Assembly: GCF_006539725.1 (NCBI RefSeq)
Contig: NZ_BJNO01000019.1
Coordinates: 1 to 64,000 of the forward strand
From: Klebsiella terrigena
GTDB lineage: Bacteria; Pseudomonadota; Gammaproteobacteria; Enterobacterales; Enterobacteriaceae
Length of the DNA stretch: 64,000 nt
Direction of reading: 5' to 3'
Part shown: piece after piece, positions 16,781 through 33,713 of the stretch
Layout of the letters: every line of letters begins with the position of its first letter
How positions within the stretch are numbered: the first letter of the stretch is position 1
Position numbers and translations under genes: made by a program
The notes under the pieces: generated by a model
The model's database searches: none
Seen by the model: the letters and a program-made list of their open reading frames with translations, nothing else
Told to the model about the DNA's origin: nothing

Positions 16781-16791
16781 CGTTACCTCCC

Positions 16792-17717: not shown

Positions 17718-17785
17718 GGTGGCCTCTTAACAGTCAGCTCGGCGGGTGTGTACCAAGCCCCTGCCGGAGGAAGGTCAAAAGCGGA

Positions 17786-18403: not shown

Positions 18404-18613
18404 TTAACGTCTTCGGCGTTCAAGTTTTTCCTGACATTCCGTGCAGGTGGTTATGCCAGGAAGTGCTTGCCGTCGCTTTTCAGGAATGGGCTTACCGCAT
18501 ACACGACAATGGAATAATGATGGCGTAGACCCTGGCTTAAAACGGCTCTGTTCAATCATCTCCTCCAGTCGTTGCTCATTAAATTCCTGATCGCGGTCGA
18601 TCTCATCCGGCAT
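18404..18613 (-). CDS. TraR/DksA-type C4 zinc-finger protein
   Basis: 69 residues. The C-terminal half has four cysteines in two pairs (CRVCGKPIPEKRRQALPGITTCTEC), the TraR/DksA zinc finger. The N-terminal helix (MPDEIDRDQEFNEQRLEEMIEQSR) has the acidic residues that insert into the RNA polymerase secondary channel. TraR proteins mimic DksA plus ppGpp and shift host transcription. It overlaps the DUF2857 gene by 11 bp. Confidence 0.8.
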   Translation of the reverse strand: MPDEIDRDQEFNEQRLEEMIEQSRFKPGSTPSLFHCRVCGKPIPEKRRQALPGITTCTECQEKLERRRR

Positions 18614-19190: not shown

Positions 19191-19204
19191 GGCGTTTTCT
19201 CCCT

Positions 19205-19399
19205 TCAGCTTATTGAGCGGCGGACTAATTTAATATTGATCCATTCGTCAATTTCCGATTCGAGCCAGGCGACACTGGCCGGGCCAATCTTGATTGAGCG
19301 GGGGAAGGTACCGCCTTTCATATACAGATAGATTTGAGAACGTTTCAGGCCAGTTTTTTCTTCAACCTGTTTCAGACGTAATAACTGATGAGATGTCAC
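19205..19399 (-). CDS. alpA: AlpA-family DNA-binding regulator
   Basis: 64 residues with a MerR-like helix-turn-helix (RLKQVEEKTGLKRSQIYLYMKGGTFPRSIKIG) and the AlpA ending ASVAWLESEIDEWI. AlpA proteins activate excision or integrase genes of prophages and islands. The GTG start is preceded by AGGAG on the minus strand; the upstream ATG at 19453 lacks a site. No integrase gene remains for it to act on in this window. Confidence 0.82.
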   Translation of the reverse strand: MTSHQLLRLKQVEEKTGLKRSQIYLYMKGGTFPRSIKIGPASVAWLESEIDEWINIKLVRRSIS

Positions 19400-19480
19400 G
19401 GTATTCTCCTGTGGCAGATATAGCGCTAGCCGGGAGATAACACGACAACACAAAATAGTGGTGTGGCGAAAGTTGATGAG

Positions 19481-19518
19481 CCCGTATTACGGAAAATACA
19501 ATCCTTAATACGGGTTTT
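19481..19518 (+). terminator. Inverted repeat followed by T run
   Basis: CCCGTATTA at 19481-19489 pairs with TAATACGGG at 19506-19514 across a 16-base loop, followed by TTTT on the plus strand. It has terminator form for plus-strand transcripts, although no plus-strand gene ends here; it may block read-through into the remnant. Confidence 0.4.
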
Positions 19519-19537
19519 CATAGTGAAGGGCATCATC

Positions 19538-20464
19538 TTACTTTTGTGTTGGTATGGAAGGGGGCGAGCCACGCTCAAGCGCAGTCTTGAGCGTGTCGCC
19601 ACTGAATCGATCGGTAATGCCTTCCTCAGATGCCCATTGTTCAAAAATGGACAATAGTTTATACGGTTGCATGATTAACGGACTGATAGTTTCATTATTT
19701 TTGCAGGCAAGCCAGAAGAGGCGTGATAGAGGGGTGGATATCCGAGTTGGAGACGGTTGAAGTATTTCTTTTTCGATCGGTTTGTTGATCAACTTATCAA
19801 GTTCACTTTTTCTGAGGACAAAGCAGGCATCACTCGGTAATTCATGTATAGGAAAATAATATTTATGCGAATCTTTCTTTGTAGCGTTTAGTATTATATC
19901 TTCGTAATCATCTGATGAAATATCTATAGGTAGCCTTTTTACGTGTCGTTCGATTCTTTCATGCCATGTCATCTTTTCGAAAAGTTGAAACGTTTCCCCC
20001 AATAAACAAACGGTAATGCCATAATTATTCGACTTTGCTCCTGTTACAGGTGATGGTATCTTTAATGAATGTGCAAGTAAACGCTGTATAAGGACATATT
20101 CATAGCCGAGCAATGTTGTGTCAATGACTCTTTGTACAGGGTGGATATATCTTCCTTCAGTACTGAAAGTTAAATTGTTTTCGCTGACAAAGGAACTTTC
20201 GGCAAGCATGAATGGTTTCATCGTTGACGAACTTTTTATTGGTCTTAGCTTTAATTTATGATTTCGTGATTTAATTTTTCTCAATATTACTGGGGATTGA
20301 AAATATATTGAAAACCGAATTTTCCCTTGCAGAGCAAAACGATAAAAATCACTTTTTCTTATTTTACACCCATTCAATCCATTGAGAAGTCTTACCGCCT
20401 CCCTGATAGTTATCCAGTCTGGAATTCCATCTCTAATGTTTAGGCAAGTTGGATTGTCTGACAT
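19538..20464 (-). CDS. Hypothetical protein at the edge of the ICE remnant
   Basis: 308 residues beginning MSDNPTCLNIRDGIPDWITIREAVRLLN; the N-terminal 40 residues look like a winged-helix or excisionase-type fold (DWITIREAVRLLNGLNGCKIRKSDFYRFALQGKI). No recognised catalytic motif. The ATG at 20464 is preceded by AAAGGAGATG on the minus strand, a strong site; an extension to 20611 is unlikely. The gene is AT-rich compared with the virB genes. Similar proteins sit upstream of alpA in enteric islands. Confidence 0.6.
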   Translation of the reverse strand: MSDNPTCLNIRDGIPDWITIREAVRLLNGLNGCKIRKSDFYRFALQGKIRFSIYFQSPVILRKIKSRNHKLKLRPIKSSSTMKPFMLAESSFVSENNLTFSTEGRYIHPVQRVIDTTLLGYEYVLIQRLLAHSLKIPSPVTGAKSNNYGITVCLLGETFQLFEKMTWHERIERHVKRLPIDISSDDYEDIILNATKKDSHKYYFPIHELPSDACFVLRKSELDKLINKPIEKEILQPSPTRISTPLSRLFWLACKNNETISPLIMQPYKLLSIFEQWASEEGITDRFSGDTLKTALERGSPPSIPTQK

Positions 20465-20629
20465 AATACATCTCCTTTCACACAATGATATTGCTGATGA
20501 ATTTCGCTGTGTTTTTGAAAGATGTTTAAAATTCTGATTGATATGAAATAGATCAGAATGATATAGGCTGATTTTATAAAATAAAAAATAACCTGTGTTT
20601 GGTTGTGACATTTTTCAAAGAGGTAAAAT

Positions 20630-20667
20630 AAAATGGCTCAGTGATTTGGTGTTCACTGAGCCATTTT
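20630..20667 (-). terminator. Terminator after the MFS transporter gene
   Basis: A perfect 14-bp stem, AAAATGGCTCAGTG with CACTGAGCCATTTT, encloses a 10-base loop 18 bp beyond the MFS stop codon. Both flanks are A/T-rich, so it should end transcripts arriving from either side. It separates the ICE remnant from the DJ-1/MFS operon. Confidence 0.88.
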
Positions 20668-20684
20668 AAATGCTATGTGTACTA

Positions 20685-21878
20685 TCATGAGTAATCGGAG
20701 GTGGTGCGTCTTTTATTTGAATTTATTTGTAATAACATCCACAAAATACCAACGATTACAACTCCGCCTCCAACCCAAGTAGGGCTTGTAAGACCAGTAA
20801 CATCCAGTGCTACACCCCCCAATAGCGACCCTAATGCAATTCCTCCGTTAAAACCGGCAATATTCAGTCCTGCTGCCACAGCTGGAGCTTCAGGTGCATG
20901 TATGTGAGATAGCCCTATCACTCTTGCTTGCATTGAGGGGACCGCTGCGTATGTCAATGCTCCAAGCAACCCAATAAACAGTGCCATTAACATTAAGGAT
21001 GAGACAGAGAACCACATAGCAAAGAGGACGATCGCCAGACCAATAAGAATTGTCATCACGGCACGGTCTGCACCTTGCTTGTCAGTCAGGCGACCACCCC
21101 AGACATTCCCGATAGCGGCCATCACGCCGTAGACCAACATAAGCAAACTACTCGTACGCTCGTCTACATGCGTTACCTGAAGTAGAATCGGGGAAATATA
21201 CGTATACAGGGCAAAAGATCCTGCATAGGCCAAAACTGTAATTCCTGCTCCGGCAAGCAGTAGTGGGTTAAACATGGCTTTTAAACCGTCCATGGCATTT
21301 GCTTGCAAGGAGGGATCATTTTGATCCGTGGGCATCAGCATTGCCAATCCAATGAAACCGATCGCTCCACTTGCCGTTACTGCCATGAATATAGACTGCC
21401 AACTCAACAGACTACCGATGTAGGTACCAAGTGGTACGCCTAATGCCAACGCAATTGTAAGACCGCCAAAAACGACCGAAACAGCGGCGCCAGCACGATG
21501 TCGCCCAGCCAGTTGGGTTGCCACACTTGAAGCAACAGCAAGAAACACTCCGTGCCCTAAACCGGAAGCAAATCGTGCAATCAACATCGGCGTTAGGGAC
21601 TCAGACGCACCGACGATACCATTGCCAACTGTAAACAGGCCCATAGCAACAAGTAATAATCTTTTACGAGGCCATCGTGTTGCCAACGCAGTTAATCCCG
21701 GAGCACCAATTACGGCACCGAGGGCGTAGGCTGTCACTGCTGTACCTACATGACTGACACTGACGTTTAGATCAGCTGATATCCTGGAAACTAAGCCGAT
21801 CGTGACAAATTCAGTGAATCCCAAAGCAAAAGCGCAGAGTGCAAAGACATATATAACAAAAGGCATGCGTTCTTTCAT
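20685..21878 (-). CDS. MFS efflux transporter, DHA1 family
   Basis: A 397-residue inner-membrane protein with 12 predicted helices, of the AraJ/YdhP-like drug-proton antiporter group. Motif A-like LATRWPRKRLL lies after helix 2, and the second half has a comparable VWGGRLTDKQGADR. The substrate is not known; sugar or small toxic metabolite efflux is typical. Its gene follows the DJ-1 gene by 3 bp on the same strand, with a LysR gene divergent from the pair, suggesting one operon induced by a compound that the DJ-1 protein detoxifies and MFS exports. Confidence 0.85.
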   Translation of the reverse strand: MKERMPFVIYVFALCAFALGFTEFVTIGLVSRISADLNVSVSHVGTAVTAYALGAVIGAPGLTALATRWPRKRLLLVAMGLFTVGNGIVGASESLTPMLIARFASGLGHGVFLAVASSVATQLAGRHRAGAAVSVVFGGLTIALALGVPLGTYIGSLLSWQSIFMAVTASGAIGFIGLAMLMPTDQNDPSLQANAMDGLKAMFNPLLLAGAGITVLAYAGSFALYTYISPILLQVTHVDERTSSLLMLVYGVMAAIGNVWGGRLTDKQGADRAVMTILIGLAIVLFAMWFSVSSLMLMALFIGLLGALTYAAVPSMQARVIGLSHIHAPEAPAVAAGLNIAGFNGGIALGSLLGGVALDVTGLTSPTWVGGGVVIVGILWMLLQINSNKRRTTSDYS

Positions 21879-21881
21879 AAC

Positions 21882-22586
21882 TCAGGCTCTTCTATTTTCA
21901 ATAGAAGCCAACAAAGGCAGCATTGCCTCAGCGACTCCTTTTGCGGAAGCGGGATTCTGTCCGGTCACTAATCTCTCGCTGACAATCACCTGTGGCTGAA
22001 AATTTGCGGCTGCAAGATGCTCAGCACCTCTTTGCTTCAGCGTGTCTTCAAGTAAGAATGGAACAATGTCGTACAACCCTACAGCACGTTCTTCATCGTT
22101 GGTAAAAGCTGACACCTTTTTGCCCGCAACCAGATATTCATTATCGGAAAGCCGAATATTCACCAATCCGGCGGGGCCATGACAAACCGCAGCGACAACG
22201 CCACCCTTTTCATAAATTCGTGATGAAACACCCGCCAACTCTATATTGTCAGGGAGATCCCACATCGTCGCATGCCCTCCTGCATAGAAGACGGCGTCAT
22301 AGACGTCAGGATCAATCTGCGAGGGTTTTAATGTGGTTTTAGTTGCCTCGCGTAAGGAATCATTATTCCAAAAGGAGGCGTTAACCGGATCGCTGAGGTC
22401 TAAACCGTCAACATGTGTCTTGCCCCCCTTGGGACTCACGAAATCAATTTCATATCCTTCTTTTGTGAGTACATCGTAGGGGTGAGACACCTCAGAAAGA
22501 TAGAAACCACTGGGTGCGGCATCTTTACTCTCGGCTTGACCTTTACGGTCATGGTTGGTCAATACAAACAGTATACGTTTAGGCAT
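21882..22586 (-). CDS. DJ-1/PfpI family protein, Hsp31/glyoxalase III-like
   Basis: 234 residues of the type 1 glutamine-amidotransferase-like fold. The nucleophile elbow is VVAAVCHGPAGLV; a Glu near DFVSPKGG and the His after Cys complete a glyoxalase III/chaperone-like site. Relatives convert methylglyoxal to lactate or repair glycated proteins. The start MPKRILFVLTNHDRKG follows GAGGAAGTT on the minus strand; a 24-residue upstream extension is not supported. First gene of a two-gene operon with the MFS exporter, 142 bp from a divergent LysR gene. Confidence 0.85.
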   Translation of the reverse strand: MPKRILFVLTNHDRKGQAESKDAAPSGFYLSEVSHPYDVLTKEGYEIDFVSPKGGKTHVDGLDLSDPVNASFWNNDSLREATKTTLKPSQIDPDVYDAVFYAGGHATMWDLPDNIELAGVSSRIYEKGGVVAAVCHGPAGLVNIRLSDNEYLVAGKKVSAFTNDEERAVGLYDIVPFLLEDTLKQRGAEHLAAANFQPQVIVSERLVTGQNPASAKGVAEAMLPLLASIENRRA

Positions 22587-22728
22587 TTTAACTTCCTCTA
22601 CATGGGGGGACTTAAAGCAAAATTCTTCTGACTGCATGCGACATAACAGACTTGTCATATTGAGTCTTATTGTGGAACAATCTATTTATCCTTTAAATAG
22701 ACCTAAACGGACAAACACTTACCCAAAA

Positions 22729-23646
22729 ATGAACAAAATAAACTTGAGAAATGACGACCTTGAAGTGTTTTTACACGTCGTCGACAGAAACAATTTCTCT
22801 GCCGCAGCACGAGACCTACAGATACTCCCCAAGATGGTGAGCAAGCAGATAGCTAGGCTGGAAACTGCACTTGGCACTACACTTTTTGAAAGAAACACCC
22901 GTAATCTACGTATTACAGACGAGGGCAGAGCTATAGCTGAGAGGGCCCGCGTAGCGTTGGCCGTTCTGGATGAGATGAAGGAACTTTCCCGAGGGGATAG
23001 TGAGGAGTTAAGCGGAAATATTCGTTTGACTGCGCCCGCACCGTTTGGCCGAAAATATGTTGCTCCTGCGATCGCTGCATTCTGCAAAGTACATCCGAGG
23101 GTGGGCTTTGATTTAAGGTTATCTGACCAAATCCAGGATCTTTACAGTGGTGATTTCGATCTGGCTATTCGTATGGGGGATCTGGCTGATTCTCGCCTTC
23201 TGGCCAGAAAAATAGCAAATAATAGACGTATTCTCATCGCATCGTCCGAATATCTGAAGAATCATCCACCCATTGAGCGACCAGAAGATCTTTTAAATCA
23301 CAACTGCTTAGTATTCGCTTACCCGGGTTTTTTACACAATTCATGGACGTTACGTAAAGCCGGTCATGAAAGAAGCATCAGCGTTACTGGCAACCTTATC
23401 AGTGACAACGGAGACGTATTGCATGCCTGGAGTTTGGCGGGGCTTGGCATATCTCTTCGAGAAACTTGGGATATTCATGATGAATTGAGAGCTGGGAAAC
23501 TTTGCCGAGTTCTGCCTGATTGGGAAGCAAACACATCTCAGATCAGTGTTGTCCGGGCGCGGCGAGAACCAATACCCCGTAGGCTAAGTGTATTTATTGA
23601 TTTCATGACTGAAAAATGGAAACGGGCACCATGGGATGATGATTAA
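22729..23646 (+). CDS. LysR-family regulator divergent from the DJ-1/MFS operon
   Basis: 305 residues of the CrgA-like LysR group (LRNDDLEVFLHVVDRNNFSAAARDL, then VSKQIARLETALGTTLFERNTRNLRIT). The start ATG at 22729 gives the family N-terminus; an ORF extending to 22555 would run into the divergent gene. The target is most probably the DJ-1/MFS pair. The ligand is unknown. Confidence 0.85.
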   Translation: MNKINLRNDDLEVFLHVVDRNNFSAAARDLQILPKMVSKQIARLETALGTTLFERNTRNLRITDEGRAIAERARVALAVLDEMKELSRGDSEELSGNIRLTAPAPFGRKYVAPAIAAFCKVHPRVGFDLRLSDQIQDLYSGDFDLAIRMGDLADSRLLARKIANNRRILIASSEYLKNHPPIERPEDLLNHNCLVFAYPGFLHNSWTLRKAGHERSISVTGNLISDNGDVLHAWSLAGLGISLRETWDIHDELRAGKLCRVLPDWEANTSQISVVRARREPIPRRLSVFIDFMTEKWKRAPWDDD

Positions 23647-24071
23647 TGTTCCGAGAGGTAGTCCGAACCGGTCTAAAAGAAGCTACCGCTTCGCTGACCA
23701 ACGGAATTTGTGATAACTCGATTTGAGTTGAGGTTGTCAACGTTAATAGATAAAAATACAATGATTGTTTAGCCAATTTAAAGGTTTAGCGACTATCACT
23801 CCCCAGAGTATGTAATAGAAGACAACCCGCCAATCCGAATCTCATGGCATGCTTGAAACCTTAATGCCAACCAGATATAACGCACGTAAAATATAGGCAT
23901 GTCAATGGGTTATCTTGATATATTCTATCCTTACCCTATAAAATCCTTTAATTGTTAAAATAAGTTAATATGTATAGAAGCATTAACGGAACATGTTTAT
24001 AACATAATACTGTGCAGGCTTTCGATTTTATGTCGTAATCGGAGAGCTTCAGGCTCTTAAGGATGCGCAGT
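23647..24071. other. AT-rich intergenic region
   Basis: 425 bp with no gene. GAAGCTACCGCTTC around 23680-23695 can form a short hairpin after the LysR stop. The rest shows no repeat or RNA gene that I recognise. Confidence 0.4.
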
Positions 24072-24974
24072 ATGAGCTATCTGGTTCAGTTACGAAGTTT
24101 TGTTGAAGTATACAAAGCTGGTTCGATTTCAAAAGCGGCAATGCGGTTGGGCATAAGCCAGCCTGCAATGTCTGCCCACATTCATTCACTTGAGGCTTTT
24201 ACCGGGTGTGTTCTCTTTACTCGTCGTTCACATGGTGTGGTGGCTACAGTGGATGGGGAGGAATTGGCGAGATTGGTGGCTTCAGATTTAGAAACGATTG
24301 AACTGAAGTTGTCGATGCTTCGATCACGTACAAGAAAGTCCTCGGGGACAGTATCTTTCATCGGGCCAGCAGAATTAATGTGGTCAAAATTACCGTACTT
24401 GGTGAAAATATTATTCAATGAAGGTATTAAATTTAAAGTTTTGACAGGAAATAGGAAGCGCATATACAGCTGTCTTCTGGACGGAAGTTGTCAACTAGGT
24501 TTCACAACTTCTATGCCGGATAAACAAAAATTTGGATATGCTGAAATTGGAATGGAAAAGTTAATAGTTGTGGTAGCGTCACTCATAGCAGACAACTTCA
24601 AAGAAAACGAGGACGTGATTGATACGCTGTCGAAGCTTCCTCTAATAGCTTACGATGGGCAGTTACCCTTGATAAGGGAAGTTTTCCAGGATTCTTCGCG
24701 ATTTTTTGCACTGCTTCGTCCGTCTATTACTGTACCGGATTTGCGGATTTTAGAAAGAATGATTCGAGAAAATATTGGTTGGACTGTGATGCCTGAGTAT
24801 TTATGCGCCCAAAGCATAGCAGGAGGTCAGATCGTTGAAGTCAATGTCCATGAGAGACTCCCCATAAATTCAATCTATTTGGTATGGATTGATAGCTCAT
24901 TACGTAACCCACTCGTTTCAGGAATCAGAGACAGAATTCTCGAACTATCAAAAAATAGCGGATTTATGGTTTGA
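24072..24974 (+). CDS. LysR-family regulator beside the cupin/deacetylase operon
   Basis: 300 residues from MSYLVQLRSFVEVYKAGSISKAAMRLGISQPAMSAHIHSLE, a LysR helix-turn-helix, with a standard effector domain. The ATG at 24072 is preferred because AAGGA lies 9 bp upstream; ATG 24063 has no site. The gene converges on the operon at 25013-27990 rather than diverging from it. It shares the AT-rich composition and may have arrived with that operon, but regulation of it is only a guess. Confidence 0.8.
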   Translation: MSYLVQLRSFVEVYKAGSISKAAMRLGISQPAMSAHIHSLEAFTGCVLFTRRSHGVVATVDGEELARLVASDLETIELKLSMLRSRTRKSSGTVSFIGPAELMWSKLPYLVKILFNEGIKFKVLTGNRKRIYSCLLDGSCQLGFTTSMPDKQKFGYAEIGMEKLIVVVASLIADNFKENEDVIDTLSKLPLIAYDGQLPLIREVFQDSSRFFALLRPSITVPDLRILERMIRENIGWTVMPEYLCAQSIAGGQIVEVNVHERLPINSIYLVWIDSSLRNPLVSGIRDRILELSKNSGFMV

Positions 24975-24987
24975 GATACATAAAACA

Positions 24988-25006
24988 GGCAGCCTTATCG
25001 GCTGCC
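24988..25006 (-). terminator. Hairpin between convergent LysR and deacetylase genes
   Basis: GGCAGCC (24988-24994) pairs with GGCTGCC (25000-25006) around a five-base loop, followed on the minus strand by TGTTTTA. It fits a terminator for the minus-strand operon and perhaps for the LysR gene. Confidence 0.7.
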
Positions 25007-25012
25007 GCGTCA

Positions 25013-25894
25013 TTATTTTATCCGTGGCGATCGCTTGACAAAGTCATCTGCAATGTCATTCAATTTTAGGAATTTCACCCCTGGATGACCAAGCATATGA
25101 GTTAAGAGGCGTTCGAGCATCATTAATACGTGCGGGCGTCCAGATACGTCCGGGTGAATCGTGAAAGTAAAGATCGCATATTCATGCTCACGGTAGACCC
25201 AATCGAATTGATCCCTCCACAACTGTTCGATGTCCCTGGGATTCATGAAACCTTGGCTGTTGGGTTTTGTTTTCATGAACATGAAAGGAGGAATATCGTC
25301 GATTGTCCAACTGGCGGGTAATTCAATAAGGTCCGTCTCTTCTCCGCGTACCAGCGGTTTCATCCATTCGGTCGGTGTCTTGGAATAATCTATCTTGGTC
25401 CAGGAATCACCTTTCCTGACATAATAAGGCTGATGATCATGATGCATTAGTGAATGGTCATATTTGATGCCATTTTCTAATAGAAGATCTGTGGTTACAG
25501 GAGAAAATTCCCACCATGGAGCGACATATCCAGTAGGTCTCTTCCCTGTTAATTTTGTGACCATGTCAATGCCTTTTAGAAGGACTTCTCTTTCTTGGTC
25601 AGGCGACATAGATATTGGGTTTTCATGACTGTAATTATGAACCCCTACCTCATGTCCAGCATTGACAACTGCTTCCATTTGCCGAGGAAAGGTTTCGATG
25701 GAATGACCAGGCATAAACCAGGTGGTGGGGATATTAAACTGGTCAAATAGATCCAGAAGACGTGGAGTACCTACTTCGCCAGCGAACATACCGCGAGATA
25801 TATCGCTTGGAGAATCTTCTCCCCCATAAGAAGATAGCCAGCCTGCAACGGCATCTACACCCACTCCAAAACCACATAGTATTTCTTTCGCCAT
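25013..25894 (-). CDS. Polysaccharide deacetylase-family (NodB-fold) hydrolase
   Basis: A 293-residue carbohydrate esterase 4/PuuE-like protein. Metal ligands are Asp14 ([11 protein letters not shown]) and His86/His90 ([10 protein letters not shown]). This variant ([26 protein letters not shown], then [13 protein letters not shown]) resembles cyclic-imidase, allantoinase and Helicobacter PgdA-type enzymes that act on small substrates rather than chitin. No signal peptide, so it is cytoplasmic. Last gene of a four-gene minus-strand operon (cupin, PfpI, HAD, this). GAGGAG precedes the start. Product unknown. Confidence 0.8.
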
Positions 25895-25937
25895 GAGTTA
25901 TTACTCCTCATACAGAAAAAATTGAAATAATATTGCG

Positions 25938-26669
25938 TTAAGAGGGTTTCTTGACTAATTTCAAGAGATCCTCGGTATCTAATTCATTAATTCCTTTTTG
26001 AAGTGCCATTAATTTATGCTCAGGGATGTTGTATCCCCAATTAGCCCAAAATGATTGAATGCCATGATCTAATGCATCAATAACATTTTGGATATTGTCA
26101 TCAATAAATAGAATACCCTCGTTTTTATCGAAGGCTATTGATTTTAGCAAGGTAAGAGTCTTGTTTTTGTCGGTCATCCTCCCATATATTTTATTCGCGG
26201 GTATGTTTAAACCATATTTACTTAGAATGTATAATATAGATTCTTCATCCTTTCCTGATACAATATAGATATCATTAGCTGTTTTAAATAAATTTGAAAC
26301 ATCCAATAGCGGACGGTGTAGTTCAGCCCAAAAATCAGGGTAGAGACTTCTTGCCAGCTTCCTATAATGGATGAACTTATCCCTGAATATTTTCTTATCT
26401 TCAGTTGGAATTGATTCATATATAGCAGTGAATCTGTCATTATCTATAGCTTCATTACCAAATTCAGTGAATGAGGCAATAAAGTGACCGTCATGGCGTA
26501 CAAAATTCCTTAATTTCCTGAATCGTTTAGCCATCAGGCGTGGGATGTTTTGAAGTACATCTTGGTTAAAATCACTGAGAGGTCTGTCATGTAATACATT
26601 CCATGTAATTAGCATGCATTCGTCTACTCCATCAACCACGACCCCGTCGAAATCCATTGCTATTAACAT
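25938..26669 (-). CDS. HAD-superfamily hydrolase
   Basis: 243 residues. Motif I is MDFDGVVVDGV with nucleophile Asp6 and acid Asp8; motif II YIVSGKDEES; motif IV ILFIDDNIQNV. A helical cap lies between motifs I and II. Such enzymes usually dephosphorylate a small metabolite. The gene starts 4 bp after the PfpI stop on the same strand, so it is co-translated with the cupin and PfpI genes. Low GC. Substrate unknown. Confidence 0.8.
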   Translation of the reverse strand: MLIAMDFDGVVVDGVDECMLITWNVLHDRPLSDFNQDVLQNIPRLMAKRFRKLRNFVRHDGHFIASFTEFGNEAIDNDRFTAIYESIPTEDKKIFRDKFIHYRKLARSLYPDFWAELHRPLLDVSNLFKTANDIYIVSGKDEESILYILSKYGLNIPANKIYGRMTDKNKTLTLLKSIAFDKNEGILFIDDNIQNVIDALDHGIQSFWANWGYNIPEHKLMALQKGINELDTEDLLKLVKKPS

Positions 26670-26673
26670 CGAA

Positions 26674-27249
26674 TTATACCACCAGCGGTTCTTTAAGAGT
26701 TTCGCCGCGCTTCCATCTATCTATTGCATCGAATGTCTGACGCATAAATTTTCCACATTCGGCATAATAGGAGCAAGTTATGATATTCCCGTCGACAACT
26801 ACATCTGCTTCAATTACATTGGCGCCGGAATTAACCATATCGTCTTTCAGACCAACATAAGCGCAGGCGAGTTTGTCTCTTAGAATACCGGCAGAAATCA
26901 TAATCCAGGGACCATGGCAGAGCCCAGCCACAACTTTCCCCTGTATTACCATCTGCTTTAGAAAATCTTTAACTCTCTGATCTTGGCGAACTCTATCAGG
27001 CGCTTCATGACCGCCAGTGAGAATAACAGCATCAAAATCAGTGGCGTTGAGTTGATCAAAATTAATATTGTCTTTGGATCTTTTATCCATAGGAACAGTG
27101 ATGCCATATTTCCCTGTCGCTGCACTTCCATCCTTTGTTGCAATAGATATATCGTATCCTTCCTCTTTAGAACGATAGTAAGTATAAACTACATCGTGAT
27201 CCTGAAAACCTGGACCAGTGATTATCACTACTCGTGTCGGATTAGACAT
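26674..27249 (-). CDS. DJ-1/PfpI family protein (YhbO/protease I type)
   Basis: 191 residues with the PfpI core: VVIITGPGFQDHDVVYTYYRSKEEGYDI at the start, AVILTGGHEAPDRVR, and the Cys-His pair in VVAGLCHGPWIMISAGIL. Relatives are deglycase/glyoxalase-type or amidase-like enzymes. Second gene of the four-gene operon; GAAGGAAAA precedes the start. It is different from the DJ-1 protein at 21882, so two members of the superfamily lie 5 kb apart in unrelated operons. Confidence 0.82.
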   Translation of the reverse strand: MSNPTRVVIITGPGFQDHDVVYTYYRSKEEGYDISIATKDGSAATGKYGITVPMDKRSKDNINFDQLNATDFDAVILTGGHEAPDRVRQDQRVKDFLKQMVIQGKVVAGLCHGPWIMISAGILRDKLACAYVGLKDDMVNSGANVIEADVVVDGNIITCSYYAECGKFMRQTFDAIDRWKRGETLKEPLVV

Positions 27250-27270
27250 GTTATTTTCCTTCTTATTGCG

Positions 27271-27990
27271 TTACGGGACGTTAATTAAAAATACATTCTG
27301 ACCACAGTACATTTCTGAGATGGCATCTTTAGCTCGTAGGATATGAATCTTTCCCATTAGATGGCTTTTTACATCTAATGAAATAAAAATAAAATCATCC
27401 TCGTCATTCAACATTTTTCTATCAAGATTTTTGACGGAAAAGTATGCTAATTTGTGTAGGTCATGTTCTCTGATCAATGTGCCTGCAGCTATCTGTTGCA
27501 AAGGAGGTAAAAGATCATGTTCCTGTGATTTCTTTTCATATGCCATATTTTGCCGGCCATAATTATCTTTAAGTCTGAGTAAGTCGAATTTGTTTCTTGG
27601 ATTTTCAACTTCGATTAATTCGATGCCTGATTTTCCCGAAATAGTCTGATGGAATACACCTTTTGCAATATATATGCTGTCGCCAGATTTTAACGCCTGA
27701 TGTGTACCATCAAGAAATCTGGTCTCGCCATCACCATGTAGGCATATAAGGACGGTGTCTTTCAATATATGACAATGCATTGAAGTGGATTGATTCTTTG
27801 ATATATGAAGGCGCCATACATCAAAAATAGAATCACAATAAACTCTATACTCATATCCCCATGGTTTTTCTATGAATCCATTGAGATGTAAGTCTTTCTC
27901 AAATGACTCACCATTATTTGAAGTTGAAAGTAGGATTTTGTTTATTTCATGCAAGTCATATACATTTGGAGTCCGGTTGTGGATTTCCAT
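27271..27990 (-). CDS. Cupin protein, first gene of an unassigned operon
   Basis: 239 residues with a single cupin barrel: STSMHCHILKDTVLICLHGDGETRFLDGTHQALKSGDSIYIAKGVFHQT, containing the His/Glu/Gln/His metal-binding pattern, similar to the C-terminal cupin of type II mannose-6-phosphate isomerases. The N-terminal third (IEKPWGYEYRVYCDSIFDVWRLHI) also recalls sugar-phosphate isomerases. The C-terminal 80 residues have no assignment. GGGGGAG precedes the start. Partners PfpI, HAD and deacetylase suggest metabolism of a modified sugar or nucleoside; the pathway is not recognised. Confidence 0.75.
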   Translation of the reverse strand: MEIHNRTPNVYDLHEINKILLSTSNNGESFEKDLHLNGFIEKPWGYEYRVYCDSIFDVWRLHISKNQSTSMHCHILKDTVLICLHGDGETRFLDGTHQALKSGDSIYIAKGVFHQTISGKSGIELIEVENPRNKFDLLRLKDNYGRQNMAYEKKSQEHDLLPPLQQIAAGTLIREHDLHKLAYFSVKNLDRKMLNDEDDFIFISLDVKSHLMGKIHILRAKDAISEMYCGQNVFLINVP

Positions 27991-28449
27991 ATGGTCGCTC
28001 CCCCGCTAATCGAATTGCTGAATGTTGATTTCACTTCGCTCAATCGTTCTGTGAGTTCAGTCTATATCGATTATTTAGTACGAGAGAAATAACTTTTATG
28101 ATGATTACCTATATTGTTTCTTTTGATCAGTCCTTCATACTCAATAATTATTGAAAACTATGCTTCTATACTTGGGTACTGTTAAAGATGCTAGATTCTA
28201 TGCCGTCAGGAGGTCATAGCTCACAAGCGATTAAGATGCTTAGCAAGATGCCGAACTCGGACCTCAGCACGATACATCGCATAATGTAGGTATCGCAGCG
28301 TTTACTTCTCTGTTTGTAGCTCTATCTTAAGAATTTGCCCCCATAGTGGTAGACAACACCTCAATCTTAAAGTAATCTACCATCTAGTAGGTTGATTGCA
28401 TTTGGCACCAACCTTATCTTTGAGATCACTCGACACTTCAGGAGTTGTC
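27991..28449. other. Intergenic region with promoter of the osmC gene
   Basis: 459 bp. The left part (27991-28340) is AT-rich and shows no gene; the sequence around 28330-28360 looks degenerate, possibly an old insertion scar. The right end holds the osmC promoter: TTGATT at 28392-28397, a 17-bp spacer and TATCTT at 28415-28420, with a shared operator at 28374-28396 overlapping the -35 box. Confidence 0.5.
28374..28396 (+). promoter_or_regulatory. Shared palindromic operator, copy 1 (osmC promoter)
   Basis: An imperfect palindrome with core ACCATCTAGTAGGT, matching the pattern ACC-WW-CTAG-WW-GGT found upstream of five transcription units between 28.3 and 37.0 kb. It overlaps the -35 box of the osmC promoter. 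Binding by the TetR protein encoded at 29191 is inferred from the presence of another copy in its own promoter. Confidence 0.75.
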
Positions 28450-29007
28450 ATGACTAATTCAAAAAAACCTTTTGCTGACGCTAATGTTATTCGCGGTACA
28501 CGAGAAGCTATTCGCCAGCAGCCAGAGCTGGGCAATCTCACCTTTAACATGAAGAGTAAATCCAACGGTGGGGTATCCGTCCGTGTGGAAACTCATGCGA
28601 CTATCCAGAACGGCCAGGTTGATACCAGTCGCTCCGGAAAATTTGCTAATGTTGGCGATGAACCTGCTGATTTATCGGGTACTGATAGCGGTATGGGCCC
28701 AGCTGAATACATTTTGCAGGCACTTGCCGGCTGTTATACCGCGACTCTGACTGTTATGGCGGCAGAAAAGGGCATTGAACTTGATGGTATTGAACTTGAC
28801 CTGAACTTCGACATTAATCTGAACGGTTTCCTGGGTCTTGACGAAAAAGTTCGCAACGGGGCGAAAGCGATCCGTGTTGGCGTTAAGCTCTCCAGTCCTA
28901 CCGCCAGCCGTGAACAGCTTGAAGAAATGGTTCGTGCACTGCCAGAAAGCTCGCCGATCCACGATACGTTGGCGAACCCGGTCAATATTGATACCCGGTT
29001 GGTGTAG
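28450..29007 (+). CDS. OsmC-family peroxiredoxin-like protein
   Basis: A 185-residue OsmC/Ohr-fold protein: LNFDINLNGFLG and a single conserved active-site region MGPAEYILQALAGCYTATLTVMAAEKGIELDGIEL, with the Cys at the start of the central helix. The family reduces organic hydroperoxides using paired cysteines. The second Cys of Ohr is not evident here, so the mechanism may differ. Start MTNSKKPFADANVIRGT after AGGAGTTGTC. First gene of a redox island; the gene stands under its own operator-bearing promoter. Confidence 0.82.
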   Translation: MTNSKKPFADANVIRGTREAIRQQPELGNLTFNMKSKSNGGVSVRVETHATIQNGQVDTSRSGKFANVGDEPADLSGTDSGMGPAEYILQALAGCYTATLTVMAAEKGIELDGIELDLNFDINLNGFLGLDEKVRNGAKAIRVGVKLSSPTASREQLEEMVRALPESSPIHDTLANPVNIDTRLV

Positions 29008-29127
29008 GTAAACCTCAGAGGGGGAAATGCCTGAGCACTGTCATTTCCCTACTGCCTGATGGCTATTAACCCCGACCAAAACGCGTTATCAGAGAAGGTT
29101 AAATCGCTGTTGTGAACTGATGTCCCC

Positions 29128-29176
29128 TTGCAGGGAACAACAGGCGCAGATAATATCTACCAACTAGTAGATTATA
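29128..29176 (+). promoter_or_regulatory. tetR promoter with operator copy 2
   Basis: TTGCAG at 29128-29133 and TAATAT at 29151-29156 are separated by 17 bp. The operator at 29155-29176 (core ACCAACTAGTAGAT, with perfect arms CTAC and GTAG) overlaps the -10 box and the start point. That is the position expected for autorepression by the TetR-family protein starting at 29191. Confidence 0.75.
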
Positions 29177-29190
29177 ATTGTGAGGATTAT

Positions 29191-29760
29191 ATGTCAGTCA
29201 TGACACGAGAAAGGCTTCTGAATGAAGCGGACCATCTGATGCGCGAACGGGGTTACTCTGCATTCAGCTATGCTGATTTGTCAAAGAGCATTGGTATCAC
29301 TAAGGCCAGTATTCATCACCACTTCCCAACCAAAGACGTTTTGGGCGAACAAGTGGTGATTCAGGCCCATACCGATACCAAAAACCGATTTGAACAGATT
29401 GAAGCGACGGAGAATACGGTTGCGCAGATGCTTACCGCCTACGTGGAGCTTTTCATCGAAAGCTATCGCACGTCGCGTATGCCGCTGTGCTGTGCTTTGT
29501 CTTCGGAAATGGCCAATCTGCCACCGAATATCAGAGTACAGGCGACCGAATATTTCGATATGCAGATTGCCTGGCTGACCAAGATTGTCAGCCGTGGCGT
29601 TGATGCAGGGGAGCTGACTGCTGACTTGCCGCCATCAAAAATGGCGCTGCTTATTTTGAATTTATGCGAAGGCGCTAGCGTTGTTTCCCGGGCAATTAAC
29701 AAGCCTGAGCTTTTCAACGATACGCTTGAACAGATCCTAATGATTGTTAAAAGAAAATAA
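29191..29760 (+). CDS. TetR-family repressor of the redox island
   Basis: 189 residues. The N-terminal helix-turn-helix (RERLLNEADHLMRERGYSAFSYADLSKSIGITKASIHHHFPTKDVLGEQV) is typical of TetR, and the C-terminal domain (TAYVELFIESYRTSRMPLCCALSSEMANLPPNI) resembles the YxaF/LmrA-type group. Two adjacent Cys residues (MPLCCAL) and the redox neighbours make thiol or electrophile sensing plausible, as in NemR. GAGGA precedes the start. An ahpD-like gene follows by 16 bp. The five shared operators suggest this is a local regulon master. Confidence 0.85.
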   Translation: MSVMTRERLLNEADHLMRERGYSAFSYADLSKSIGITKASIHHHFPTKDVLGEQVVIQAHTDTKNRFEQIEATENTVAQMLTAYVELFIESYRTSRMPLCCALSSEMANLPPNIRVQATEYFDMQIAWLTKIVSRGVDAGELTADLPPSKMALLILNLCEGASVVSRAINKPELFNDTLEQILMIVKRK

Positions 29761-29776
29761 TTCTGGAGATAACCCC

Positions 29777-30115
29777 ATGTTAGATTGGAATGAATACCGC
29801 TCAGAAGTGATGCAACGTGTTGGTGACCTGGGTAAATTGGCCCCGGATACGTTAAAAGGCGTTATGGCTCTGGGCAACGCCGGCAATAAGACCAACCTTC
29901 TTGGCGCGAAAGTGCGTGAACTGATTGCACTGGCTTGTGCGGTGACGACTCGCTGTGATGGTTGCATTGCCGTTCATGCCGAAGCTGCCGTTAAAGCTGG
30001 CGCCACAGAAGAAGAAATTGCTGAAGCCCTGGGTGTGGCAATCAACCTGAATGCAGGTGCTGCCGTGGTCTATTCCGCACGTACGCTGGATGCGATTAAG
30101 CAACTGAAAGCGTAA
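29777..30115 (+). CDS. Carboxymuconolactone decarboxylase/AhpD-like protein
   Basis: 112 residues with the AhpD signature TTRCDGCIAVHAEAAVKAGAT: Cys60-x2-Cys63 and His67, the redox-active CxxC of alkylhydroperoxidase D-like proteins. These are trimeric or hexameric all-helical thiol peroxidases or reductant relays. Co-transcribed with the TetR gene (16-bp gap, GGAGATAA ribosome site). Likely detoxifies peroxides or serves as a reductant for the OsmC protein nearby; that pairing is inferred. Confidence 0.85.
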   Translation: MLDWNEYRSEVMQRVGDLGKLAPDTLKGVMALGNAGNKTNLLGAKVRELIALACAVTTRCDGCIAVHAEAAVKAGATEEEIAEALGVAINLNAGAAVVYSARTLDAIKQLKA

Positions 30116-30136
30116 TAGTTATCGCGTTGAAAATAT

Positions 30137-30160
30137 AAAAGGGCATTACTGCCCTTTTTT
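30137..30160. terminator. Bidirectional terminator between ahpD-like and thioredoxin genes
   Basis: AAAAGGGCA, a four-base loop, and TGCCCTTTTTT form a stem with U-tracts on both strands. The stop codon of the minus-strand thioredoxin gene lies within it, so convergent transcripts share one terminator. Confidence 0.88.
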
Positions 30161-30475
30161 CAGCTCTAACAATGCTTGCTGATAAAACCCTGCCGATTTA
30201 ACACCCGGTATACGCTGGACCAACTGCCCATCCTTGAACATCAGTACGGACGGCATTCCCCAAATTTCATATTTGGTGGTCAGTACCGGTGCCAGATCCA
30301 CATTCACTTTGCCGACTTTGATGTCGCTTTCAATCTGCTCGGCAAAATGGTTAAAAATGTCTTCGCTCATCTGACAAGGTGGGCACCAGGGGGCAGAGAA
30401 GCGCACCACCGCAACCCCTTCATGCCTCTCGATTTCTCTAAAATTATCTTCATTGTAAAGGGTTAATTCACGCAT
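30146..30475 (-). CDS. Thioredoxin-like protein (CPPC active site)
   Basis: A 109-residue thioredoxin fold: FSAPWCPPCQMSEDIF with Cys31/Cys34, cis-proline region WGMPSVLMFKDG. The CPPC motif rather than CGPC gives a different redox potential from TrxA. The second of two adjacent ATGs (30475) is chosen because AGGAG then sits 6 bases away. Operator copy 3 lies 34 bp upstream, placing it in the same regulon as OsmC, AhpD and the old yellow enzyme. Confidence 0.87.
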   Translation of the reverse strand: MRELTLYNEDNFREIERHEGVAVVRFSAPWCPPCQMSEDIFNHFAEQIESDIKVGKVNVDLAPVLTTKYEIWGMPSVLMFKDGQLVQRIPGVKSAGFYQQALLELKKGQ

Positions 30476-30508
30476 CATTCACTCCTGCAGGATGTAACTT
30501 GATAGTAA

Positions 30509-30530
30509 TTCTACCTACTAGTTGGTTTGT
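30509..30530 (-). promoter_or_regulatory. Operator copy 3 (thioredoxin promoter)
   Basis: Core ACCTACTAGTTGGT fits ACC-WW-CTAG-WW-GGT with a perfect CTAG centre. It lies 34 bp upstream of the thioredoxin start codon on the minus strand, where a promoter would be. Confidence 0.72.
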
Positions 30531-30766
30531 TTAATTAACATAAAAAGCTATCATCGATAGAAAGGTGCTTAAGCGAAGATAATGCCATGTTTTATCAATG
30601 GATAAGCGTCATCTTATGTGGACGGCGTGCTGAGGATTATGATATTTCATTCCATCTGAATGAGAAAACTGACGTATTGTAAAATCGGGATTACTTTATA
30701 AAAAAGCAAGCCCATCCATAAAGTGTCGGCCTACAGGGCAGGCCTATTCCTTTTCGTAAGGCGATG

Positions 30767-31609
30767 ATGGAAAGAACATTATCCAGTCGTATTAATGTGG
30801 GGAGTACAGCGCATGTGCTGCATACGCAGCCCCTGATGATGCGCCATATCACTATAGATGAACCCACAATCATCCTGGTCCGCCATGGCAGGAAAATAAT
30901 CCGCTGGGCGCAAGAGGAGATAACGCTGGAAGCGGGGGACGCGGTGGTCATCGGGGAGGGGCACTCTTTTGATATCATCAATACACCATCACCTTTAACG
31001 GGTACGTACGAAGCATCATGGCTGAGTTTTTGTGCCGATTTCGTCCAAAACTACTGCTTCATGCATGCCCCACGTATGAGCATGAACGAAGCAAATAAAA
31101 TGGCAGAGCCAGGCAACAGTTTTCGCCAGGCCTTTTATCACACTGCGGAGGCCATTACAGATACTGAAAACATCCCTGAAAGTATCGTGGCCAGGCGTAT
31201 GGAAGAGATGCTGAGCTGGCTGGATGAATACCGAATTTTCTTCGCGCTGAAACAACATACCGGACTGGCGATAAAAATCCGCAAACTCGTTGCAGCAGAC
31301 ATATCACAAGACTGGAATACTGCGCAGGTGGCGGCTGAATTGGGTATGTCGGCCACCACCCTGAGACGCCATCTGCATGCCGAAAATACCTCATTTACCC
31401 ATCTGGTGACTGACATTCGCATGTGTCGTGCACTGACACTTTTGCAGGTGACCGATCTTTCAGTCACCCGCATATCCCTGGAAGTCGGCTACGAAAATCC
31501 GTCTAAGTTCGCCGCCAGATTTCGAACCCGCTTCGGATTCAGCCCCAGCCTGGTCCGGGTTTCCGGCCAGGCTATCGGCAACCTGGCTGCGGTTAGCGGC
31601 CCTGCGTAA
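30767..31609 (+). CDS. AraC-family transcriptional regulator
   Basis: About 280 residues. The N-terminal cupin-like domain (TIILVRHGRKIIRWAQEEITLEAGDAVVIGEG) senses an effector; the C-terminal 100 residues carry two helix-turn-helices (WNTAQVAAELGMSATTLRRHLHAENTSF and SVTRISLEVGYENPSKFAARFRTRFGFSPS). The second of two adjacent ATGs gives better spacing from AAGG. It overlaps the convergent PEBP gene at its 3' end by 17 bp. Target unknown; no shared operator lies upstream. Confidence 0.85.
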   Translation: MERTLSSRINVGSTAHVLHTQPLMMRHITIDEPTIILVRHGRKIIRWAQEEITLEAGDAVVIGEGHSFDIINTPSPLTGTYEASWLSFCADFVQNYCFMHAPRMSMNEANKMAEPGNSFRQAFYHTAEAITDTENIPESIVARRMEEMLSWLDEYRIFFALKQHTGLAIKIRKLVAADISQDWNTAQVAAELGMSATTLRRHLHAENTSFTHLVTDIRMCRALTLLQVTDLSVTRISLEVGYENPSKFAARFRTRFGFSPSLVRVSGQAIGNLAAVSGPA

Positions 31610-32156
31610 TCTGAAGATGCGCTTCGCCCAGTGAGTTCGCTTTTGCCATAAAGCCGACCAGGGCGGGCGTCGAGTCCGCCGTTATTCCCGGAAGTTTGTC
31701 GACACGAAGTGCCGTCAGCGTGATCTCATAACGGTGCGTTTCACCCTTCGGCGGGCAAGGGCCGCCATAACCCGGGATACCGAAATCAGTCCGGGTCTGA
31801 AGAGCCCCTTGCGGGAGATTTTTGTTATCCGCCGTTATCCCGGCCGGTAACGAGTGAAGGGATGAGGGAATGTTCACCACCTGCCAGTGGATCCAACCGA
31901 GGCCTGTCGGCGCATCCCTGTCATAAATTTTGAGAGCGAAGCTTTGGGTTCCTGCCGGCGCGCCGCTCCAGTTAAAAGAGGGGGCAAGGTTTCCACCGCT
32001 GCACCCAAATCCATAAGGTGAACTCAGGGTCTGAGCTGCGGGGAAATGGTTTTTTTCAAGTTCATGGCTTGTCAGCGTAAAACTGGCTGCAAAAGCGACC
32101 TGGCTCGACAACGCCAGGCATAATGTACTGATAACAGTAAGGTGAAGTCTGGACAT
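31593..32156 (-). CDS. YbhB/YbcL-type phosphatidylethanolamine-binding protein, exported
   Basis: 187 residues: signal peptide (1-23, SSQVAFA then ASFT), then the PEBP fold with GFGCSGGNLAPSFNWSGAPAGTQSFALKIYDRDAPTGLGWIHWQVVNIP and GYGGPCPPKGETHRYEITLTAL. Periplasmic relatives (YbcL) are linked to host-response modulation; enzymatic function is not established. Its 3' end overlaps the AraC gene. The upstream gap to 32526 is shared with the divergent old yellow enzyme operon. Confidence 0.87.
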   Translation of the reverse strand: MSRLHLTVISTLCLALSSQVAFAASFTLTSHELEKNHFPAAQTLSSPYGFGCSGGNLAPSFNWSGAPAGTQSFALKIYDRDAPTGLGWIHWQVVNIPSSLHSLPAGITADNKNLPQGALQTRTDFGIPGYGGPCPPKGETHRYEITLTALRVDKLPGITADSTPALVGFMAKANSLGEAHLQITQGR

Positions 32157-32383
32157 TTACTCTTCTCCATCGGGGTGATTAATATCCCAATGATAAGGGG
32201 AGAGAACGACTCCTCGCCGCCCTGAACCGGCCAGTCTTAGCTCCGTAACGCCCAATAATGATATTTGTCATTCCCTGATTTCACAGGATGACGACCCTCT
32301 CGCCGACGGCAGCTCACCTTACACAGCATTCCCTGAACCTGTCTCCGGTGACAAAAGGACAGCATGATTTGTTCTTTTACCCA

Positions 32384-32413
32384 TTGACCAATCAACTAGT
32401 AGGTAGGTATAGT
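32384..32413 (+). promoter_or_regulatory. Old yellow enzyme operon promoter with operator copy 4
   Basis: TTGACC at 32384-32389 and TATAGT at 32408-32413 form a good sigma-70 promoter with an 18-bp spacer. The operator at 32387-32408 (core ATCAACTAGTAGGT) fills the spacer, so a bound repressor would exclude RNA polymerase. The start codon of the first gene is at 32526, giving a leader of roughly 105 bases. Confidence 0.8.
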
Positions 32414-32525
32414 GCAGCCATACGCTTAACCGGCATCAGGAAGCGATCGTCAGCTCCCCGGCCCGCTAAGTATTAACTCCGGCCCCCGGCGGGGCTTTTC
32501 TCTCTTTCGCCTTGCGAGGTATACG

Positions 32526-33632
32526 ATGAGTAAGTTGTTCACCCCCTACAATCTGTCAGGCATGCAGTTAAAAAACCGCGTGGTCATGGCCCCGATGACC
32601 CGCACCCGCACCATGAACGACGTGCCGGATGACGTCGTTGCACTTTACTACGCCCAGCGCGCCTCTGCGGGGCTGCTTATCACCGAAGGCATGCCTGTTT
32701 CTGAAGAAGGGCGCGGCTATCTGTATACCCCCGGCATCTATAACGCTGCGCACGTTCAGGGCTGGCGCAAAGTGACCGATGCGGTACATGCGAAGGGCGG
32801 CCGTATTTTTGCTCAGTTGTGGCATGTGGGCCGGATGTCTCATACCTCAATTCAGCCGGGCAACATCGCGCCAGTTTCCGCCGGTACCGTACAAGCGGTT
32901 AACACCACTGTCTTTGCACTGACAGAGTCTGGCGAACCGGGGCCTGTGGTTCCAAGCCAGCCGCGTGCGCTTGAAACCGTAGAAGTTCGACGCGTTACCG
33001 CTGACTTTGTCCATTCAGCGCGTCTGGCAATGGAGGCCGGGTTTGACGGCGTGGAAATCATGGCGGCGAACGGCTTCATTTTCGACCAGTTCCTCAGCAG
33101 TGAACTGAACCCTCGCACTGATGAATACGGTGGCTCTGTGGAAAACCGTCAGCGGTTCCTGCTGGAAACGGTGGATGCCATCTCTGCGGCTATTGGTAGC
33201 AATAAGGTGGGCTTGCGCATTTCACCGTTCGGGCGGATTTACGACCTGGCGCCTTATGAAGGTGAAGAAGAGATTTGGGCCAGTATCGCTGCGGCCCTCG
33301 GCCAACGTGAGCTGGCTTATGTGCACCTCTATTATCAACCTGTTTATACCCAGGCACCGGTACCTGCCGGTTTCAAAGCCGCGTTCCGTAAAACTCTGGG
33401 GGGCACCGTTATTGCCGCCGGCGGCTTCACCCGCGAGATTGCCGAAACCGCACTTGAGGCAGACGAACTGGATCTTGTTGCGTTTGGCGTGCCGTACATC
33501 GCCAACCCTGATCTGGTCGAAAGAATGCAGAACGGCTGGCCGCTGGCTGAAAGCGATCGCACGACGTATTACGGCGTGACGGGGTCGCCGGAAAAAGGCT
33601 ACACCGATTATCCCGCCTGGGAAGCCAACTAA
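32526..33632 (+). CDS. Old yellow enzyme, NemA-like alkene reductase
   Basis: A 368-residue FMN-dependent flavoprotein. The TIM barrel has KNRVVMAPMTRTR (FMN), AQLWHVGRMSH, GFDGVEIMAANGFIFDQFLSSELNPRTDEYGGSVENRQRF, and the C-terminal GGFTREIAE..VAFGVPYIANPDL. It reduces alkenes, quinones, N-ethylmaleimide or nitro compounds with NAD(P)H. Note MAANGF instead of the usual HAANGY: the first substrate-binding His is Met here and Tyr is Phe, so substrate or stereo-preference may differ. First of four co-directional genes (FrnE, SDR, hydrolase) behind operator copy 4. Confidence 0.9.
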   Translation: MSKLFTPYNLSGMQLKNRVVMAPMTRTRTMNDVPDDVVALYYAQRASAGLLITEGMPVSEEGRGYLYTPGIYNAAHVQGWRKVTDAVHAKGGRIFAQLWHVGRMSHTSIQPGNIAPVSAGTVQAVNTTVFALTESGEPGPVVPSQPRALETVEVRRVTADFVHSARLAMEAGFDGVEIMAANGFIFDQFLSSELNPRTDEYGGSVENRQRFLLETVDAISAAIGSNKVGLRISPFGRIYDLAPYEGEEEIWASIAAALGQRELAYVHLYYQPVYTQAPVPAGFKAAFRKTLGGTVIAAGGFTREIAETALEADELDLVAFGVPYIANPDLVERMQNGWPLAESDRTTYYGVTGSPEKGYTDYPAWEAN

Positions 33633-33713
33633 CGCCACGTAGCTGGTGGTATTTGCGGTGCCCACATAAAGAGGCACCGCCAGACGACATTAATGGGGTA
33701 TTCAGGAGCCAAT

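Follow-up and report, generated by a model that had tools for sequence, protein, structure and literature searches.

A 64,000-nucleotide stretch of Klebsiella terrigena DNA (NZ_BJNO01000019.1, positions 1-64,000), here called the window, carries an operon of four minus-strand open reading frames that lie close together at 27990-25013, separated by gaps of 21, 4 and 43 bases. Four tightly packed genes had been described at this place in the original prediction, a reading of the sequence alone, and their coordinates are correct. The operon and the stem that follows it are made up as follows.

27271-27990, minus strand: cupin of 239 amino acids, with His72, His74, Thr79 and His114 at the cupin metal positions
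26674-27249, minus strand: PfpI/DJ-1-like protein of 191 amino acids (PF01965, 126.3 bits), with Cys111 and His112 kept and Gln16 at the position of the catalytic Glu
25938-26669, minus strand: HAD-like protein of 243 amino acids from an orphan family, with motifs seen by eye (DxD at 6 and 8, Lys168, Asp190/191)
25013-25894, minus strand: protein of 293 amino acids assigned to the cyclic-imide-hydrolase/HP0310 clade, with Asp14, His86 and His90 kept and Asp12 replaced by Gly
24988-25006, minus strand: terminator-like stem 3' of the operon; the region has 3 such sites against 3.1 in shuffled sequence, so that the stem alone is not significant

The four genes move as a set. When 84,980 species genomes were scanned with a pattern seeded on the cupin, an approach limited to close relatives, nine loci were returned, eight of them from Enterobacterales (Rahnella, three Serratia, Pantoea, Pectobacterium and two Brenneria) and the ninth from a KSB1 metagenome-assembled genome (MAG). 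All eight Enterobacterales loci hold orthologues of the four genes in identical order and free of internal stops, with protein identities to the window of 92-99.6% in six loci and 75-96% in the two from Brenneria. The loci of Pantoea coffeiphila (L015) and Serratia bockelmannii (L016) are 99.98% identical over 16.7 kb (1-16717), and were therefore counted as one lineage; such near-identity reflects either a very recent transfer, a sample mix-up or mislabelling. The neighbourhood comparison also places the set on a Rouxiella plasmid, where it is present twice with a second DJ-1-type gene sitting within the operon. The original prediction had treated the four as a set that would not be found scattered, and in the carriers examined the genes do stay together.

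The four genes are under purifying selection. Against the two Brenneria loci the ratio of nonsynonymous to synonymous substitution rates (dN/dS) is 0.03-0.21 at dS of 0.4-0.8; for Brenneria L018 it is 0.033 for the imidase-like gene, 0.061 for PfpI, 0.075 for the cupin and 0.203 for the HAD-like gene, at dS of 0.43-0.64. This bears on the proposal that the operon is a passenger without current function that hitch-hikes on a genomic island. A patchy distribution would suit a passenger, given that among 20 genomes of the genus the cupin is found only in that of the window, and so would decay: in one Rouxiella copy (copy two) the reading frames of the HAD-like, second DJ-1-type and imidase-like genes are interrupted, and the cupin of genome G389 is broken. 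Ratios well below 1 for every gene at such dS, together with the lack of stops in any of the eight loci, largely refute the proposal, which now seems very improbable. The strong conservation argues only against decay.

Beyond these carriers the cupin is rare. When 394 Enterobacterales genomes were searched with the cupin, 79 gave a match at E<=0.001 and only two a match better than 1e-12, namely the window's own genome and the broken copy in G389; the others reach at most the level of a phosphomannose isomerase (PMI). No match to 24000-28400 was found by megablast in complete genomes of E. coli. Among plasmid records at E<=1e-5, the cupin and the HAD-like protein match the Rouxiella record only, and the imidase-like protein matches 436 records. 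No described cluster of this kind was found in the open-licence PMC text that was searched, and this agrees with the earlier statement that the set fits no known pathway.

The operon had also been described as low in GC content and unlike its flanks. It has 39.3% GC, against 56.0% in 1-17500, 50.7% in 31001-64000 and 50.8% in the whole window, and to that extent the description stands. The low GC is not a property of the four genes alone, as the stretch 17501-31000 has 44.1% and the adjoining LysR gene 41.9%, and it is uneven inside the operon (35% for the cupin and HAD-like genes, 42% for PfpI and 45% for the imidase-like gene). The 250 bases upstream are conserved with Brenneria and belong to no known RNA family. 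An Rfam search of 18000-31500 for an RNA leader gave two matches, both far under the gathering score. The four proteins have no PADLOC match to a defence system at E<=0.001 and, save for PfpI, which matches two families of unknown function, no PHROGs match to a phage gene at the same threshold.

The last gene of the operon had been read as a PuuE-like deacetylase or cyclic amidohydrolase. The PuuE allantoinase model TIGR03212 gives 82.4 bits against a cut-off of 424.6, and a full-length, gap-free match to Helicobacter pylori HP0310 (HpPgdA, PDB 3qbu; E 3.6e-143) assigns the supposed deacetylase, on sequence, to the clade of HP0310 and the cyclic imide hydrolases. The zinc residues Asp14, His86 and His90 are kept, as are Trp127, Trp128 and His247. 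In place of Asp12, the residue that touches the zinc-bound water in HP0310, the window protein has Gly. Gly12 is present in all nine operon rows of the alignment and in Rouxiella copy two, so that every operon copy read has it and none of the other relatives read does; Asp12 is present in all nine non-operon rows, in L079 and in HP0310. In a tree of nine operon and ten other rows, midpoint-rooted only and with L016 and L078 outside it, the operon rows form one group with support of 100/100. They differ from eight of the ten others (L069 and L070 being outside the count) by 15 fixed differences, including D12G, F154H and G87N, which lies beside a metal His.

The protein therefore resembles the cyclic imide hydrolases in end-to-end homology and metal residues but differs from them in Gly12, in 14 further fixed differences and in its neighbours. 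Amidase or asparaginase genes and genes for GTP-binding proteins adjoin the non-operon relatives in five of six annotated neighbourhoods, the exception being archaeal L069, which is without an amidase or asparaginase; no such partner is among the cluster genes. In that archaeon, Halorussus vallis (L069 6995-10086), the imidase relative adjoins E1 alpha and beta genes, the type of enzyme that is found with the cupin-PfpI pair in other loci. In Brenneria sp. hezel4-2-4 a second imidase relative (L079, 4484-9685), 73% identical and of the Asp12 type, lies apart from the operon copy, with neighbours that by eye are of MFS (major facilitator superfamily), SDR (short-chain dehydrogenase/reductase) and CobW type. 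The loss of Asp12 could mean a non-catalytic role.

In the available part of PMC9304392, HxnM of Aspergillus nidulans, the cyclic imidase in the breakdown of nicotinate, shares 64.2% identity with a Pseudomonas putida imidase homologue and has HP0310 as its closest known structural homologue; it is through that paper, and not by direct sequence comparison, that HxnM is linked to HP0310 and to the imidase of P. putida YZ-26. A rival reading is deacetylation of the cell envelope or a polysaccharide, for which the cupin would supply sugar phosphate. The window protein matches PF01522 above its cut-off, one study, as excerpted, describes HP0310 as active on acetylated xylan, chitin and p-nitrophenyl acetate (pNP-acetate; PMC3688963), and an effect of HP0310 on peptidoglycan is reported in work cited in PMC3084791. 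The consulted text of PMC3084791 also describes a closed site and no activity on the polysaccharide substrates tested or on N-acetylglucosamine and chitotriose. With the contact of the zinc-bound water replaced by Gly, and no signal peptide visible, deacetylation can be given hardly any weight. Signal peptides had been stated to be lacking in all four proteins, and none was seen on inspection by eye. The original prediction of an acylated substrate loses its footing, since the protein falls in the HP0310/cyclic-imide-hydrolase clade and lacks that clade's Asp12.

The PfpI-like protein carries a comparable change. Its best PDB match is PH1704 (E 9.3e-39), which has Glu (Glu12) at the position of Gln16, and its score against TIGR01382 is below the cut-off (123 against 139.05). 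Gln is found at the catalytic Glu position in seven of seven rows, three of them from the window, Brenneria and Rouxiella and four from distant loci, KSB1 among these; own-genome paralogues are a weak control for this comparison, as one row has Glu, two rows of other classes are unaligned at the position, and Tyr occupies it in the second DJ-1-type genes. The nucleophile Cys111 and the next residue, His112, are kept in the window protein as in the PfpI/DJ-1 glyoxalase-deglycase family (PH1704, Pseudomonas aeruginosa PfpI), from which it differs in that Gln replaces the catalytic Glu; distant locus L059 has Ser in place of the His. As reported in the accessible text of PMC12135873, the E18Q change in DJ-1 abolishes hydrolysis of cyclic 3-phosphoglyceric anhydride (cPGA), and E18 is called essential for the glyoxalase and esterase activities. 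Glu22 of P. aeruginosa PfpI, listed among the putative catalytic residues in the portion of PMC11987610 consulted, is taken as the equivalent of the Gln16 position.

These residues bear on metabolite repair, in which the enzymes would clear reactive or damaged side products such as dicarbonyls, cyclic phosphate anhydrides and cyclised amides. DJ-1-family proteins clear methylglyoxal or cPGA according to excerpts of PMC11987610 and PMC12135873, the cluster has two DJ-1-type genes, and OsmC-, AhpD-, thioredoxin- and old yellow enzyme-like genes lie upstream (names by eye). Repair is nevertheless improbable, because those activities need the Glu that is Gln in the operon PfpI and because a function so general should not be limited to so few genomes.

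The cupin had been called phosphomannose-isomerase-like. The sequence family holds, with PF01050 just above its cut-off (25.2 bits, cut-off 23.6) and PF07883 just below (25.7 bits, cut-off 27.2), although the score against TIGR01479 is 33.6 bits against a cut-off of 372.95. The metal ligands of type II phosphomannose isomerase are Gln-His-Glu-His. Two of these are replaced in the cupin, where His72, His74, Thr79 and His114 occupy the metal positions in six of six cluster-type rows; among PMI-type rows Gln72 is present in 11 of 12 and Glu79 in 12 of 12, the comparison being drawn from 23 loci (L023-L045), 12 with a usable frame and the other 11 excluded. A candidate replacement of the metal Glu by Lys77 was dropped, as the alignment places the Glu at position 79. 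The likeness to type II phosphomannose isomerase (the C-terminal domain of ManC/GMP-PMI) is thus a weak sequence match only, and the cupin departs from it in His72 and Thr79 for Gln and Glu and in standing alone at 239 amino acids. Its AlphaFold model is poor (mean predicted local distance difference test score, pLDDT, 35.5).

At E<=0.001 nothing in Pfam, NCBIfam, PHROGs or PADLOC matches the HAD-like protein, and no PDB sequence matches it better than E 0.11. Its DxD, Ser/Thr, Lys and acidic motif IV residues were picked out by eye, and most are invariant (Ser138 is Leu in L015). A profile of the protein found one of 299 phylum genomes, the window's own. The motifs would fit the phosphorylated substrate that was originally proposed.

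A larger mobile cluster around the operon had been missed; its genes, and the probable far end of the island that carries it, are listed below.

24063-24974, plus strand: LysR-type regulator, convergent with the operon
22555-23646, plus strand: second LysR-type gene, LysR by resemblance only, adjoining the second DJ-1-type gene; in 6 of 8 loci
21882-22658, minus strand: second DJ-1-type gene, HchA-like class; in 6 of 8 loci, with a 43% identical gene inside the Rouxiella operon
20685-21878, minus strand: DHA1-type MFS transporter (Cmx/CmrA-, AraJ-, SotB-like), all named models below cut-off; in 6 of 8 loci
12255-12270, minus strand: 16-base copy of the 3' end of tRNA-Asn, probable far end of the island

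The LysR gene adjoins the operon in all ten copies, counting the eight loci and the two Rouxiella copies. It is damaged in three of them, being cut in L015 and L016 by an apparent IS3-type transposase and split in Rouxiella copy one. The MFS gene is present in the window and in L012, L013, L014, L017, L018 and L019, and absent from L015 and L016; of the Rouxiella copies, copy two has an intact gene (50% identity) and copy one a broken one. The curated models that score best for the transporter are those for Cmx/CmrA efflux, a sugar transporter (SotB) and AraJ. In G389, a DJ-1-type gene of the HchA-like class adjoins the broken cupin.

Two further stretches lie on either side of these genes. 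A protein of 357 amino acids (19538-20611), without a Pfam, PHROGs or PADLOC match at E<=0.001, is conserved on the island in six of eight loci, with two internal stops in L017 and in two pieces in L019. Upstream of the operon, 28396-34415 holds genes that by eye resemble OsmC, TetR, AhpD, thioredoxin, AraC, PEBP, old yellow enzyme and DsbA-type genes; this stretch is partly common to L012 and L013 only.

The operon is cargo of a tRNA-Asn integrative island. An integrase gene (contig C19:73015-74283, outside the window) adjoins a 24-base copy of the tRNA-Asn 3' end at C19:74445-74468, and a direct copy lies at the far end; the copies at 12255-12270 and 74445-74468 therefore suggest an island of about 62 kb. 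Further on are a second integrase gene (C19:97017-98315) and tRNA-Asn (C19:98496-98571). Two integrase genes with two full tRNA-Asn end copies (C19:73015-98571) suggest a tandem pair of islands. The tRNA-Asn comes first, followed by the integrase and then the operon, in Brenneria (L018, L019) and in Serratia M24T3 (L014), where two transposase-like genes intervene, and Pectobacterium (L017) has an integrase and a 20-base tRNA-end copy. The island part in the window includes VirB1-like, VirB3/VirB4-like and DUF2857 genes. The nearest known systems are the tRNA-Asn integrative islands of Enterobacterales of the ICEKp/HPI type, which the window island resembles in its integrase, two tRNA-Asn end copies and VirB1- and VirB3/B4-like genes, and from which it differs in carrying the four-enzyme cluster. 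In L017, the integrase-operon interval (4113-6745) encodes a metallo-beta-lactamase (MBL)-fold protein, whose PADLOC matches (PDC-M48B, LmuA) are weak, and a second protein that has none. To the left of the probable island end, 6770-12086 holds a type 2A, SrpI-like encapsulin shell gene (9668-10612; PF19307, 316.6 bits), whose neighbours by eye resemble cysteine-metabolism genes.

The cupin can also be followed to distant genomes. In a set of 398 phylum genomes its profiles matched, apart from the window, G544, G550 and G706; a set of 274 class genomes added G765, and the KSB1 MAG brings the number to five; searches of the MAG's group (82 genomes) and of 11 genomes for G706 each found only the starting genome. 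In four of the five loci (L020, L059, L060, L061) a Gln-type PfpI adjoins the cupin or lies near it, and in L020, L059 and L060 there are E1 alpha/beta-type genes nearby as well. Neighbouring genes are heptose-kinase-like, nucleotidyltransferase-like and epimerase-like, many of these names being given by eye at model scores below cut-off, and L020 and L060 also hold HAD-type genes of other kinds. For G550 (L062) no PfpI was found within the 8 kb read, in which the cupin hit starts 759 bases from the contig end. To judge from these neighbours, the cupin-PfpI pair appears to be used also in sugar-biosynthesis loci, beside enzymes dependent on thiamine diphosphate (ThDP) of the E1 type.

On the observed gene set, order, conservation and mobility, the recurring regulator and transporter and the changed catalytic positions, a tentative reading can be placed: the mobile cluster may encode a cytoplasmic pathway in which a small phosphorylated compound, probably derived from a sugar, is made or modified and then dephosphorylated, and the product exported. 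In short, and in a predicted order of steps, the LysR protein would probably control the cluster; the cupin and PfpI-like protein, as an old pair, would rearrange or oxidise a compound of the sugar-phosphate class; the HAD-like protein, a putative phosphatase, would remove phosphate; the re-tooled relative of the cyclic imide hydrolases would act on a ring or amide of the compound; and the DHA1 transporter would carry the product outward. Three of the enzymes depart from their families at catalytic positions (Gly12 in the imidase-like protein, Gln in PfpI, His/Thr in the cupin). Given that known relatives depend on these residues, the three may do undescribed chemistry on a small molecule. The changes argue against a simple transfer of family activities, which falls short of proving new reactions.

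Several points weigh against this pathway. The changed residues could also mean that individual proteins have lost their activity. Motifs are the basis of the HAD label, and the AlphaFold model of that protein is poor (mean pLDDT 48.0). The HchA-, AraJ- and Cmx-type names rest on scores below curated cut-offs. The Pantoea/S. bockelmannii lineage is without the MFS gene and has a cut LysR gene; therefore, the four genes can persist without both. No imidase relative was found in any of the five distant cupin genomes at E<=1e-15 (G544 being 69% and G550 71% complete), and the link to the imidase is therefore confined to Enterobacterales.

The main rival is a catabolic or detoxification cluster, in which a cyclic imide or amide of plant, fungal or bacterial origin is opened and degraded, with the MFS protein expelling the compound or a by-product and LysR sensing it. 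The clade of the imidase-like protein speaks for it, as do the canonical relatives, which sit with amidase or asparaginase, SDR, GTP-binding-protein and transport genes. A LysR gene adjoining enzyme genes is a usual catabolic layout, the carriers are largely plant-associated, as is the case for several of the genera, and the transporter resembles drug efflux pumps. The cluster, however, has no amidase or asparaginase gene, Asp12 is lost from every operon copy read, and the cupin-PfpI pair is elsewhere found in glycan loci and not in imide catabolism. Breakdown or detoxification of this kind is accordingly possible but doubtful.

The pathway for a sugar-derived compound also has a bolder form, which is offered as a speculation that may well fail: a new secreted-molecule pathway from re-tooled enzymes (a 3-His cupin, a Gln-type DJ-1 and an Asp12-independent imidase), built round an ancient cupin-PfpI pair that performs an unrecognised step of sugar biosynthesis beside ThDP E1-type enzymes. 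If so, one undescribed reaction would be common to glycan loci and a mobile metabolite cluster.

Overall, the original interpretation is partly supported. The folds are known, the conserved combination is new and the active sites are changed. If the proposed pathway is right, plant-associated Enterobacterales carry a compact, mobile and conserved pathway whose product could affect plants or competitors, and the database names polysaccharide deacetylase, PfpI deglycase and mannose-6-phosphate isomerase would cover re-tooled enzymes.

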